A DNA stretch of 64,000 nucleotides from contig NZ_CP010515.1 of the NCBI RefSeq assembly GCF_003431325.1, positions 310,001 to 374,000 of the forward strand, given 5' to 3'. Below the pieces are notes generated by a model. It did not search any database and was not told the origin of the DNA. It worked only from the letters and a program-made list of their open reading frames with translations. The translations under genes and the position numbers were made by a program. This document shows, piece by piece, positions 14,028 to 54,491 of this stretch. Position 1 is the stretch's first letter. Each line of letters begins with the position of its first letter. Origin of the DNA: Acidilobus sp. 7A (GTDB lineage Archaea; Thermoproteota; Thermoprotei_A; Sulfolobales; Acidilobaceae).

Positions 14028-15232
14028 CTAAAGGGCGAGGGTTCCCTTAGGGCGGTTCACAGGTTCCCCCCATCTGTTCGGGCTTACATCTGTCACCTGG
14101 GGGGCAGTCGGGGCAGCCAGAGGTCCCCCCATCTGGCTAAGCGCCCTCCCCTCAATGTTCAGTATAGCTATTGTGTCCCTGTCGGCCTCAAGGCCGCAGC
14201 TAGGGCACCTGAGCCTGCGATGCCCTACTTCTACAAGTTTAGCGCCGCACCTTGGACACGTCGTGGATGTGTTGGTAGGGTCAACAACGAACAGCGGCAC
14301 TCCGCCCTTCTCGGCCTGCCAGTCAATCCAGAACGCCAGCCTCCTGTAGCCGAGCGCTATCAGGGCTGTCCTGTGCCCCTTCGGGAGCTCCCTTAGGCTC
14401 TCCACCAGCCCCGTGAGGTCCTCCCTGGCTACCGCCAGCTGGCCCTGCTTCGCTAGCGACACGATTATATGAGCCGTCCTCCTGGCCCAGTCCTCTATGA
14501 TGTTCCTGGCCTTCCTGCGGAAGTGCCTTATCCTCCTCCTTACCCCGCTCCTCCTGCGCCAGGCGCTATACCTTGAGGGAGGAGTACTTCCCCTGAAGCC
14601 TTTCAGCGAGCCTCCTGTAGCGCAGGGCCCTCTCAACTGGCGTCTCTATCCTTTGCTCAACGCTTGAGTTGCCAACTACTATCTGCCTCTCATTTATATC
14701 AACGGCAAGCACCCCCCTTAGGGGCGTACTTTGCTGGCCTAGGCACCTGTTTAGTTATGTAGAGCGTAAACTCGCCGTCCCTAAATACAAGCCTGGCCTC
14801 CCTATTAGGGAAGTCGTCATACCTCCCGTCCCAGCCGATGACTCTGAGCCTGTAACCCCCTGCCAGCTCCATATGGTTATCCTTTATCCTGTAGCCCTGT
14901 TCATGAGTCAGCCACACGCTCAGGCGCTTAGCTGTTGGTATATCGCCCCTTTTCGGGTTCTTAAGCCAGGACCTGGCTATAGCGATGACCTCCCTGTAGC
15001 AGTCCTGGGCGACCCTGGCTGGTAGGCCGTACCTCTCCCTCAGGTCATTATACAGGAGCTTGTGGGCCTTGGTGAGGCTCAGGGCCCTGCTCGCTATTAC
15101 TGCCCTTATTGAGTAGTTTAGTGCGTCTCCGTACCTCCTCATGAGGTCCAGCAAGGCCTGCTGGCTTTCGGGCTCGGGGCTAACCCTCATTTTAACACTC
15201 AGGGTTAGCTCTCCCTCACCGCCCGCAGGCAT
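14028..15232 (-). pseudogene. tnpB: tnpB (IS605 OrfB), two frameshifts
   Basis: TnpB is the RNA-guided nuclease of IS605 elements. The N-terminal part (ATG 15232) runs to PAKYAPKG, where a run of six G (14712-14717) throws the frame into a stop at 14699. In the next frame GVLAVDINERQIVVGN (RuvC-I Asp) continues to YSSLK, then a TAG (14566-14568). A second shift restores RYSAWRRRSGV, FRRKARNIIEDWARR, VAREDLTGL (RuvC-II Glu), the zinc finger CPRC/CPSC and ADRDTIAILNI (RuvC-III Asp). All catalytic residues survive, so the damage looks recent. The stop TAG lies in the right-end palindrome, as is typical. Confidence 0.85.
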
Positions 15233-22364: not shown

Positions 22365-22640
22365 TCACTCGCTCATCCTGGTCACTGCCTCCACCTGCAC
22401 GTCCTCCACGTCAGGCACAGACCTCAGGAACTCCTCGAGGGTCTCAGTGCCTCCCTCCACGTCCTCAGGCATCGCTATTATAAGTTTCAGGGCCTTGAGG
22501 CCGAAGGCTATGGGCTCCTCGCCCGAGTTGAGGACCTCGTAGCCCTGCGGCAGCGAGCCCTTTATCCTGTTAAGGAGGTCACTGAGGTTGACGTCCACCG
22601 AGGAGGGCGTAACGCTCACCAGCACGGCGACCCTTGCCAT
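22365..22640 (-). CDS. ef1b: Translation elongation factor 1-beta (aEF1B)
   Basis: 91 residues, the archaeal single-domain form: MARVAVLVSVTPSSVDVNLSDLL, YEVLNSGEEPIAFGLKALKLIIAMPEDVEGGTETLEEFL and VPDVEDVQVEAVTRM. It is the guanine-nucleotide exchange factor of EF-1alpha. The frame is open 7 codons further upstream, but ATG 22640 is chosen because GAGGTGG lies 5 nt before it. The zinc-ribbon gene ends 10 nt before this start, the usual archaeal neighbour. Confidence 0.92.
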   Translation of the reverse strand: MARVAVLVSVTPSSVDVNLSDLLNRIKGSLPQGYEVLNSGEEPIAFGLKALKLIIAMPEDVEGGTETLEEFLRSVPDVEDVQVEAVTRMSE

Positions 22641-22650
22641 TCTGTCCACC

Positions 22651-22860
22651 TCATGGCCCAACGAAGCCGCAGTTGGGGCACCTGTACGGAGTGCCCTGCT
22701 TCCTGCACTTGGCGCAGCGCCAGAGGAGGGCCTTGCCGCAGTTGGGGCAGTAGAAGGCCACGGCCTTCTCCTTGGGGTGAATTATCCTGCCGCAGCTCAC
22801 GCAGACTGGGGGCTGAACGGTGTCAAGCATGTCTATCTTTCTCACGAGCGATACCGACAT
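22651..22860 (-). CDS. Small zinc-ribbon protein linked to EF-1beta
   Basis: 69 residues with four CxxC-type pairs: CVSCGRII, FYCPNCGKALLWRCAKC and YRCPNCGFVGP, i.e. two zinc ribbons. It resembles the archaeal DUF1610-type zinc-ribbon protein commonly encoded just upstream of EF-1beta. It probably binds RNA or a translation factor, an inference from context only. TATA-like CTTAAAATACC near 22894-22904 lies upstream. A start at the internal Met of MLDTVQPP is also possible. Confidence 0.8.
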   Translation of the reverse strand: MSVSLVRKIDMLDTVQPPVCVSCGRIIHPKEKAVAFYCPNCGKALLWRCAKCRKQGTPYRCPNCGFVGP

Positions 22861-22980
22861 ATCCTTACTCCCGCCAGTCCGTGGACGCTCCCAGGTATTT
22901 TAAGCCTGCCTACGGCCTTCCCGAAGGCTTAGCGTGGCGCCTTCCGCAGCTGTTTAGAGTTTCACATAGTTTTTAGGGCT

Positions 22981-22989
22981 CAATATATC
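22981..22989 (+). promoter_or_regulatory. TATA box of the 23.0-kb RNA candidate
   Basis: CAATATATC follows GGGCT and is the clearest plus-strand TATA motif in a 350-nt gene-free stretch. The zinc-ribbon gene on the other strand has its own TATA, so this box has no other obvious client. Initiation is expected near 23010. Confidence 0.5.
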
Positions 22990-23009
22990 ATCATGTCTAT
23001 CGGCGAGGT

Positions 23010-23215
23010 CCCCTTGAGGGGTGAAGAGCCGCCAGCCCCCAGGGCTACTCAGGGCGTGGGGCCCCAGGTAACCCTGAGCGCCCCAGGCCCTATGAGGGCC
23101 CCGAGCGGGGCGCGGGGAACAGGGGGTGAGGCGATTACTGTAAAACGATGAACCCGTGTAGGAGCTGAACCCCTGGCGCTACCTGCCAGCGCCTGCTCCG
23201 TCGGCTATGAAGGAA
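23010..23215 (+). ncRNA. Structured non-coding RNA candidate, unassigned
   Basis: The gene-free region 22871-23219 has no credible ORF on either strand, but from 23010 it folds into consecutive G+C-rich helices. These are CCCCTTGAGGGG (23023-23034); CTCAGGG...CCCTGAG (23049-23079); GCGCCCC...GGGGCGC (23079-23113) enclosing AGGCCCT...GGGCCC; and GGAGC...GCTCC (23160-23202) enclosing GGCGCT...AGCGCC. A single-stranded patch GATTACTGTAAAACGATGAA lies between. It lacks the RNase P GGAAAGTC core, the SRP GGAAGGGAGCA loop and 5S landmarks. It may be a new RNA, or an untranscribed G+C-rich spacer. Confidence 0.45.
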
Positions 23216-23219
23216 GCCC

Positions 23220-25169
23220 TTAGCCCTCGCCCCCTGATGGCCACCTAGGCCTCATGAGCCCCTGGGCTAGGCCTCTCCTAGCGCGCGATACAGAGGCCCT
23301 GCCGGGCAGCCTGAGGGCCACCTCCGAGGGGTCAACCGCGCCGACTATCTCAACGTCCTTGGCAACCCTTGAAAGCTCCTCAACTATTTCCTTGGCAACG
23401 TCCTCAACCTTCCCATTGCCTGGCGTCACCCTGAGGTATGCCACCGCCTGGGGGGCCACAACGCTCTCAGGCCCAACTATAACCACCGGGAGCCCCTCCT
23501 CATCTAGGGCCACCCCAAGATATACCTCGACCTTGAGGGGCCTCAGGTAGTTCTTCTTGCCGTAGACCATGAAGGAGCCCTTCGTCAGGTACTCGCCCGA
23601 GGGCGGGCTCTTCGACACCTGGGAGCCGTAGGCCCAGTAGACGCTGACGCTAGCCATGCCCTCCTTCCAGGCCCTGCTGTAGGCTGCCGTGAGCGTCGCG
23701 GCCTCCTCAACGTCCTGCTCAGTGAACTTGCCCCCGGGGCCAGTCATGAGCACCACTGCAGGGGCCCCGTGAACGTCGGCATGGAGGAAAACATCATTGG
23801 GTCCCAGCATTCTCCTAACAAGGCTCTCGTTTTGGTCTGCGTCCCTCCCCCCAACCGCAAGTAGGCCTGATGACGTTACAAGCCAGTGGTACCTCTCGTA
23901 CCAGGCCCTCCGCCTGCCCCTAGCCTTAGCCCTCAGCTCCTGGAGGGCGAGCTGGCGCTCCAACTCCTTCAGCCTGGCCTCTATGTCAACCTCCGACCTC
24001 TGGGCCCTCTCGGCCTTGGCCCTCAGCTCGCCCGCCTCGCGGTAGAGCCTCTTTATGGCGTCGTCCACGCTCTCGTAGAGGTAGACCTTGACGTCAATGC
24101 CCGAGAGCTCAAATACCGCGTACCCCTGCCTCCTGTTGACCTCCTTGGCGCCGCAGCCCTCCCCTCCCTCCCTTATGCACCTGAGGGCGCCCGCGACGTC
24201 ATGATATGTCGAAGCTATGGCATTTGCCTGCGCCTCGAGGAGCTCGGCCTGCTTAAGGTAGTCCTCCGCCTCCCTCCTGGCCCTCTCAAGGCTGCTCATC
24301 AGCTTGGCCCTCTCGGCCTCAAGGGGGCTTGGCCTCCTCGGCGCTGAAAGACTGAAGTACAGGTCCAGCGCCTCGTCGAAGCTGTTGAAGGCCTGCTCCC
24401 TCATGCCCGTAGCTGATGTCACCCTGAACGGCGTCGCCTGTGCAGGGGCCCCGTCAGGGCCTATGTAAACGTAGCCCCTCCCCTGAAGCGACTCGTCAAG
24501 TATCGTCCTTAGAGCGCCCGTAAGTCCCGCCAGGTCCTGGGACCCCAGCGACTGGGGGCTCACGTCAGCCCTGAGCCCGGCCCTGAAGACGGCCTCCTCC
24601 GCGGCCTCGCCTGGGACCCCCAGGGAGAGCACGAGGGACCTTACCAGGTCCTTAGCGCCTGAAGCCCTTATTCTCATCCCAAGCTCCTCAGGGTTAAGCG
24701 TGAAGGGGTTCTCGGACCTCAGGGGCGGGTATGAGTACTGGAGGCCCCTCTTGACGCTCCTGTCCTTGGCCTCAAAGTATGAGGAGGCCGAGATCACCTT
24801 GCCGTCCGGCGAGACAAGAGCTACGATGCCCCTTGGCAGGAGCTCCGCGATAACCCTGTGACCGTCCTCGAAAGCTAGCTCCACGAGCCTATCAAAGCCT
24901 ACCTGCTTAACCTCAGCTATCCTCAGGTCCCTTATCGACTCCCTCATGGCTTTGGCCAGGGGGCCCAGCTCCCTGCCTGGCTGATACCTTGAGCTCAGGT
25001 GAACCCTCACGGCGGGCTGCATGACGAGGAAGTCGCCGTGGGGCACCCTAACCCTTAGGGCCAGCGCGTCGTCCTGATACACGTTATCGACCCTCTGCCC
25101 CCTGAGCTGGCCGGCGTTCGCCGTGACCCAGGCCATCACGTCAAGGGAGCTCATTGACTTCCTGGCCAA
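23220..25169 (-). CDS. NFACT family protein (Rqc2/RqcH-like)
   Basis: 649 residues. The NFACT-N domain starts at MSSLDVMAWVTANAGQLRGQRVDNVYQ. It is followed by an HhH-like middle part, a coiled coil (residues 275-400) and the NFACT-R domain with ERYHWLVTSSGLLAVGGRDADQNE, then ADVHGAPAVVLM and TAAYSRAWKEG. This is the full domain order of eukaryotic Rqc2 and bacterial RqcH, which bind split large subunits and peptidyl-tRNA in ribosome-associated quality control. The archaeal role is inferred. It starts directly after a 144-residue ORF on the same strand with no gap. Confidence 0.92.
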   Translation of the reverse strand: MARKSMSSLDVMAWVTANAGQLRGQRVDNVYQDDALALRVRVPHGDFLVMQPAVRVHLSSRYQPGRELGPLAKAMRESIRDLRIAEVKQVGFDRLVELAFEDGHRVIAELLPRGIVALVSPDGKVISASSYFEAKDRSVKRGLQYSYPPLRSENPFTLNPEELGMRIRASGAKDLVRSLVLSLGVPGEAAEEAVFRAGLRADVSPQSLGSQDLAGLTGALRTILDESLQGRGYVYIGPDGAPAQATPFRVTSATGMREQAFNSFDEALDLYFSLSAPRRPSPLEAERAKLMSSLERARREAEDYLKQAELLEAQANAIASTYHDVAGALRCIREGGEGCGAKEVNRRQGYAVFELSGIDVKVYLYESVDDAIKRLYREAGELRAKAERAQRSEVDIEARLKELERQLALQELRAKARGRRRAWYERYHWLVTSSGLLAVGGRDADQNESLVRRMLGPNDVFLHADVHGAPAVVLMTGPGGKFTEQDVEEAATLTAAYSRAWKEGMASVSVYWAYGSQVSKSPPSGEYLTKGSFMVYGKKNYLRPLKVEVYLGVALDEEGLPVVIVGPESVVAPQAVAYLRVTPGNGKVEDVAKEIVEELSRVAKDVEIVGAVDPSEVALRLPGRASVSRARRGLAQGLMRPRWPSGGEG

Positions 25170-54240: not shown

Positions 54241-54491
54241 CCACGCTGACCCTCAATTAGGTTGATAGGCTCTGCGCTCTAGGAAGCCTCGCAAACTGGC
54301 GGTTCCCTTTGTATAATTACACAGTATGAATCTAAGGGGACGGAAAGCCTCGCCCCTCCAGGGTGAGAAGGAGCTCAGGCACGTACTGAGTAGCCAGCAG
54401 ACTATGACGGCAATGCCAAAAGTTGACCAGGCACTTTGCTTTATATAAGGACCGCCCTTGTTAGTGATGAGAAAGGCAGAGTGACGTAGAC

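Follow-up and report, generated by a model that had tools for sequence, protein, structure and literature searches.

A structured-RNA candidate of Acidilobus is a TnpB guide-RNA scaffold inside a tnpB-less miniature insertion element

What is the RNA candidate that lies beside the rqcH gene of Acidilobus sp. 7A? In the stretch of 64,000 nt that we analysed (hereafter the window), positions 22861-23219 are rich in G+C and contain no recognised gene, and a sequence-only reading had described there a gene-free region with a TATA box and a highly structured RNA of four consecutive hairpins, belonging to no recognised family and conceivably involved in translation. TATA-like boxes are indeed present, TTTTTAGG at 22970-22977 and AATATATC at 22982-22989, and the absence of a recognised gene was confirmed, but the region does hold a leaderless-style open reading frame of 52 aa, a relict of a TnpB C-terminus. 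The neighbours, all on the minus strand, are genes for a Zn-ribbon RNA-binding protein (22651-22860), EF-1beta (22365-22661) and RqcH (23220-25169). The tail-to-tail arrangement with RqcH was correctly described, whereas the nearest divergent gene is that of the Zn-ribbon protein, with EF-1beta, which had been given this place, behind it. As had been suspected, no known RNA family accounts for the candidate: Rfam gave no family at the region either at the gathering threshold or at a permissive one (E<=10), where the matches were at chance level, and a search for tRNA and tmRNA found none there. An H/ACA candidate (PyrR206, sub-threshold at 18 bits) was rejected as a coincidence of G+C hairpins. 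Folded as a single sequence, the candidate was barely better than its dinucleotide shuffles (z=-1.51 for 22981-23215 and z=-1.86 for 23000-23173), so that, as long as relatives are left aside, the description as highly structured comes down to the G+C content. It is from these relatives that the answer comes: the orphan RNA candidate is a TnpB guide-RNA scaffold (omegaRNA/reRNA) inside a tnpB-less miniature transposon.

The element and its copies

Judged from its sequence, the segment 22945-23173 is almost certainly a non-autonomous (MITE/PATE-like) element derived from an archaeal insertion sequence of the TnpB-only kind, within the IS200/IS605-IS607 group, running from a left end (LE) to a right end (RE) (Table 1). 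Alignment of the copies together with their flanks gave sharp limits on both sides, with nothing alike outside. Immediately left of the element, GCCTTCCCGAAGGC at 22916-22929 forms a hairpin, which possibly belongs to the upstream region of the Zn-ribbon gene or is the remnant of an older element. The fourth of the hairpins described earlier (about 23175-23194) falls into the host flank, outside the element, and the row of four gives way in the family consensus to a different fold, closed by a long-range stem.

Table 1. Features of the element and its surroundings, in window coordinates
Feature	Positions	Strand	Basis
tnpB-less TnpB-type insertion element, LE to RE, 229 bp	22945-23173	+	repeat search, covariance model, boundary alignment, tree
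CCTTC, host target site and presumed transposon-adjacent motif (TAM), left of LE	22940-22944	+	boundary from conservation
Left end (LE) CGCAGCTGTTTAGAGTTTCACATAGTTTTTAGG, including TATA-like box 22970-22977	22945-22977	+	
5' module, UCCCC-loop-GGGG hairpin, confined to 8-member subfamily	22999-23046	+	
TnpB omegaRNA/reRNA scaffold	23047-23173	+	131-position covariance model R1, 129.8 bits
Closing stem, 5' strand, partner 23154-23164	23048-23059	+	
Closing stem, 3' strand	23154-23164	+	
Right-end motif GAGCTGAACCCC, 3' boundary shared by scaffold and transposon	23162-23173	+	near-invariant among copies
Predicted guide TGGCGCTACCTGCCAGCGCC, host DNA right after RE	23174-23193	+	placed by analogy with TnpB systems
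52-aa ORF, pseudo	22993-23151	+	C-terminal part TLSAPGPMRAPSGARGTGGEAITVKR matches TnpB C-terminus ALSAPKPDESPSGVRGNRDEAMTVRQ read through scaffold; no Pfam match

Searched at the DNA level together with relatives, the own genome (1.54 Mb) proved to contain eleven further copies with 76-91% identity, and a congener partial ones. A covariance model built from 20 copies, for the 127 nt at the 3' side, located 23 loci in the own genome, 10 in G001, of the same genus, and zero in the congeners G002 and G003. The hits of the model extend to other families within the order (25 in G008, 18 in G039, 6 in G042, 5 each in G046 and G047, and one each in G052 and G037), and the omegaRNA family spans five archaeal families of the order plus further archaeal records. 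A pattern scan of viral contigs gave just two chance hits, in bacterial-phage-like contigs. At the end of contig C9 and the start of contig C16 of G039 (L145, L146), the assembly breaks within the element, with tnpB on one side and the scaffold on the other; since breaks fall inside copies, the copy numbers of draft genomes are probably underestimates.

The tnpB gene is missing from 22 of the 23 own-genome copies, one retaining it, and in 21 of these 22 the scaffold follows the LE at a distance of 71-109 nt. The layout is that of MITEs and PATEs of the IS200/IS605 group, with many copies at different sites, LE and RE in common and the interior deleted. Several types of deletion can be told apart, and the promoter-like box of the LE is kept in several of them. 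This conserved box, TTTATA/TTTAAG, also precedes tnpB in longer copies, and the first of the two boxes in the window aligns with it in other copies, tnpB-bearing ones included; the deletion of tnpB has thus left an LE with a promoter-like box directly upstream of the guide-RNA scaffold. In the tree, the window copy sits in a clade of eight rows (support 100/100), a genome-specific subfamily whose 5' module was seen neither elsewhere in the genome nor in eight relatives.

The presence of EF-1beta and RqcH as neighbours had raised the idea of an independent structured non-coding RNA tied to translation, to which we now give practically no credence: it is contradicted by a dispersed repeat family with a tnpB parent, which occupies 22 other genomic sites with unrelated flanks and has its relatives at the 3' ends of TnpB transposons. 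The orthologous spacer of the congeners, from the Zn-ribbon gene to rqcH, also lacks the element, and its length falls short of that in the own genome by about 324 bp in G003 and 310 bp in G001.

The scaffold and its tnpB parent

Among the named prokaryote genomes scanned, 21 loci carry a relative of this family's TnpB, four of which stop before the 3' end and were left out of the count. In 16 of the 17 that reach it, the RNA model overlaps the last ~40 codons of tnpB, the single exception being a relative of 37% identity, and it is therefore as the guide-RNA scaffold of TnpB that we identify the RNA. Loci with the overlap come from Desulfurococcaceae, Ignisphaera, Nezhaarchaeota, Bathyarchaeota and other Thermoproteota records, and the scaffold also lies at or over the 3' end of tnpB in L041, L143 and L150 (seen in the own genome, the congener and G052). 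In the copy L041/L144 it is preceded by an ORF of 448 aa with matches to PF07282 and TIGR01766, and in G052 an intact TnpB of 426 aa, its zinc finger complete, is flanked by this LE on one side and this RNA on the other. That the family protein is TnpB is supported by PF07282 (57-64 bits in intact relatives), by TIGR01766 (65/58 bits, above cut-off), by profile matches to Cas12f/TnpB structures and by the conserved RuvC residues D/E/D, of which the own-genome protein keeps D200, E294 and the DRD motif (L150 numbering). The same protein lacks 17 residues, including two of the four zinc-finger cysteines, so that the cognate TnpB is damaged and no fully intact partner is seen in the genome. In its gene (L144, genome C1:1498913-1500253), the only tnpB of the family in the genome, the 17 codons are gone between two CPRCG zinc-knuckle repeats, a loss that resembles recombination between these repeats, while the frame is otherwise open and continues through the scaffold. 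The two tnpB copies of the congener have full zinc fingers and are broken by a stop or frameshift and by runs of N.

Other TnpB genes were encountered along the way. At L140 (genome C1:666045-667284), the LE of the family and the first ~70 codons of tnpB are followed directly by a 400-aa TnpB of a different clade, which reads as the insertion of one TnpB element into the other or as a recombination between the two. Within the window lies another TnpB gene, frameshifted and from a different clade, on the minus strand (14028-15232), with an N-terminal ORF at 14699-15232 and a C-terminal ORF at 14028-14636 that has a guided_TnpB match; the RNA model R1 had no match near it. Another dispersed repeat, about 45 bp long and of the CTCCTCCCTACCCCTGAGGGGCGAGGCTTTCAGTTGTAA type, occurs at 54340-54378 (minus strand) and in at least 15 other places of the genome, with copy L037 adjoining one such repeat, and is apparently the right-end hairpin of another TnpB family.

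The overlap between scaffold and gene also bears on the 52-aa ORF. Its ATG lies about 20 nt past a TATA-like box and its 52 codons are open, as a leaderless gene for a small protein could be expected to look, but its C-terminal half is the reading frame of the TnpB tail, the frame is broken by stops in many other copies, scaffold lengths differ by non-multiples of three, and the ORF has no family match. We consider such a gene highly improbable and rejected it in favour of a relict of the TnpB C-terminus.

The structure of the scaffold is conserved. In an alignment of 61 copies, 92.6% of cells are paired as in the consensus, compared with 31-59% when the partners are slid, and 20 double changes were counted against 7.2 in shuffles. 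The 22 tnpB-less copies of the own genome show the same, with 97.8% of cells paired (30-59% when slid) and 9 double changes (0-1 when slid). A tree-aware covariation scan over all column pairs returned no individually significant pair (best E about 3.4), so that the covariation, proposed earlier as a check of the RNA, is supportive and not decisive. A plausible pseudoknot, GGGGU x ACCCC, at the guide flank is paired in 87% of cases versus at most 57% when slid, with 34 of 1000 shuffles equally good, and is shorter in the window copy than in the parent; pairing of the 5 nt that flank the guide with a loop is known from TnpB guide RNAs (PMC10711439, PMC12558985). What the earlier reading had sensed is supported in a different form, that of a promoter-like left end followed by a conserved non-coding RNA scaffold outside Rfam.

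Insertion sites and a proposed mode of action

Where the elements begin, the left flank is conserved over a short stretch of about GCCYNM at -6 to -1, which starts abruptly (G 75%, C 91% and C 82% in 44 copies) and is absent beyond -6. At the other side, the 3' limit of the scaffold is the RE of the transposon, as in omegaRNAs, and after GAGCTGAACCCC the sequence is unrelated between copies, with T at +1 in 67%. By analogy with characterised TnpB systems (PMC10278001, PMC10640517), CCTTC would be the TAM of the window copy and TGGCGCTACCTGCCAGCG, from 23174 on, the start of its guide. Joined flanks of the window copy and 11 others, compared with the congeners, gave no clean exact empty site, the spacers being too diverged. 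Y1-type TnpA (PF01797) is absent from the own genome and its congeners (G000-G003), and a strict assignment to IS605 is therefore not claimed. As for IS607, serine recombinases are encoded in the genome, none of them beside the family's tnpB, and position +1 of the right flank is not fixed.

The first 18 nt of the predicted guide have no second exact copy in the genome, and a single site matches with 2 mismatches in 18. This counts against domestication of the TnpB scaffold by the host as a small RNA that regulates a target (TldR-like or other), as does the scatter of the copies over sites that are not conserved, with congeners lacking the element here; although the promoter-like box, the retained structure and the subfamily-specific 5' module would all suit such an RNA, we find it very unlikely.

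Taken as a whole, the data are best explained by a tnpB-less element that probably carries a guide RNA and borrows TnpB in trans. We infer transcription, loading, guided cutting in trans and a selective benefit, and on balance favour the following course. RNA polymerase would start near 23000 (expected at about 22997-23000 from the TATA spacing); given where the box lies in the miniature copies, the start would fall at the 5' module or a little upstream of it. The transcript would comprise the 5' hairpin module and the scaffold before running through the right end into host DNA, whose bases from 23174 on would become the guide. A TnpB supplied in trans, by the L144 gene or by one that was intact in the past, would bind the scaffold and be aimed at TAM plus guide, that is, at copies of the locus without the insertion. 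Re-cutting of these would help the element to persist and to spread, in the way that has been proposed for autonomous TnpB transposons.

Alternatively, the same tnpB-less TnpB element could be inert MITE debris, its scaffold conserved only through the recency of the copies and for the right end it contains, which transposition requires in cis, and its RNA without present function. The damage to the only partner TnpB, the lack of Y1 TnpA in the genus members tested, the degradation of several copies (L138, L139) and the marginal single-sequence folding all fit this alternative. It is more difficult to reconcile with pairing that is kept in tnpB-less copies, with both sides changing, over 127 nt, far beyond a terminal transposase site, or with a promoter-like box retained in several deletion types, and we regard it as possible though rather unlikely.

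Under the explanation by a borrowed TnpB, numerous guide RNAs of the genome may stand alone and share one RNA-guided DNA cutter. We can only tentatively extend this to a working network, a doubtful picture in which one TnpB would act in trans with about 22 stand-alone omegaRNAs, each directing renewed cuts at the empty allele of its own site, so that gene-less miniatures persist on a borrowed nuclease, and in which the 5' hairpin gained by the eight-member subfamily would stabilise the short transcript. If the RNAs are made and loaded, a small genome with 22 guide copies to one nuclease gene would be a natural test of whether gene-less transposons can survive by parasitising a TnpB nuclease. 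The omegaRNA family also explains orphan calls of structured RNA in thermophilic archaea.

Comparison with known systems

What sets the present family, which is absent from Rfam, apart are gene-less copies in which a promoter-like LE is fused to an omegaRNA scaffold. In the literature covered, which takes in few subscription papers, we found nothing on this scaffold or on crenarchaeal omegaRNA copies that lack tnpB and are fused to a promoter. Scaffold copies without an adjacent nuclease gene recall the HEARO/IscB omegaRNAs, whose loci can occur away from the protein gene, but those belong to another nuclease and another, bacterial RNA family. The closest likeness is with the omegaRNAs/reRNAs of TnpB in IS200/IS605 and IS607 elements (sotRNAs in haloarchaea), which share a scaffold over the 3' end of tnpB that ends at the RE with a host-derived guide next to it (PMC10278001, PMC12558985, PMC10711439), as well as a closing stem and a possible guide-flank pseudoknot. 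Unlike these, the window element has no tnpB, its LE places a promoter-like box directly upstream of the scaffold, and its RNA has no match in Rfam. Expression is on record for haloarchaeal sotRNAs/omegaRNAs (PMC12558985), and guided nuclease activity for an archaeal TnpB from this group of transposons (PMC10640517). The solo-tnpB IS200/IS605 elements of Sulfolobus islandicus (SisTnpB1, PMC10640517) are likewise archaeal and have a conserved sequence left of the LE, which is their TAM, a conserved RE and a variable guide, with the difference that their TAM is TTTAA/TTTAT, compared with a GCC-rich left flank here, and that tnpB is mostly lost here. Finally, the palindrome-associated transposable element (PATE) of Halanaerobium hydrogeniformans, of IS605 type, consists of 28 nt of LE, the last 58 nt of tnpB and 160 nt of RE (PMC7290912), and thus shares with the window element a gene-free layout of LE, tnpB tail and complete RE; it is present in one copy, against 22 tnpB-less copies in 1.54 Mb here, where the window element in addition has a subfamily-specific 5' hairpin module and its own genome is without Y1 TnpA.
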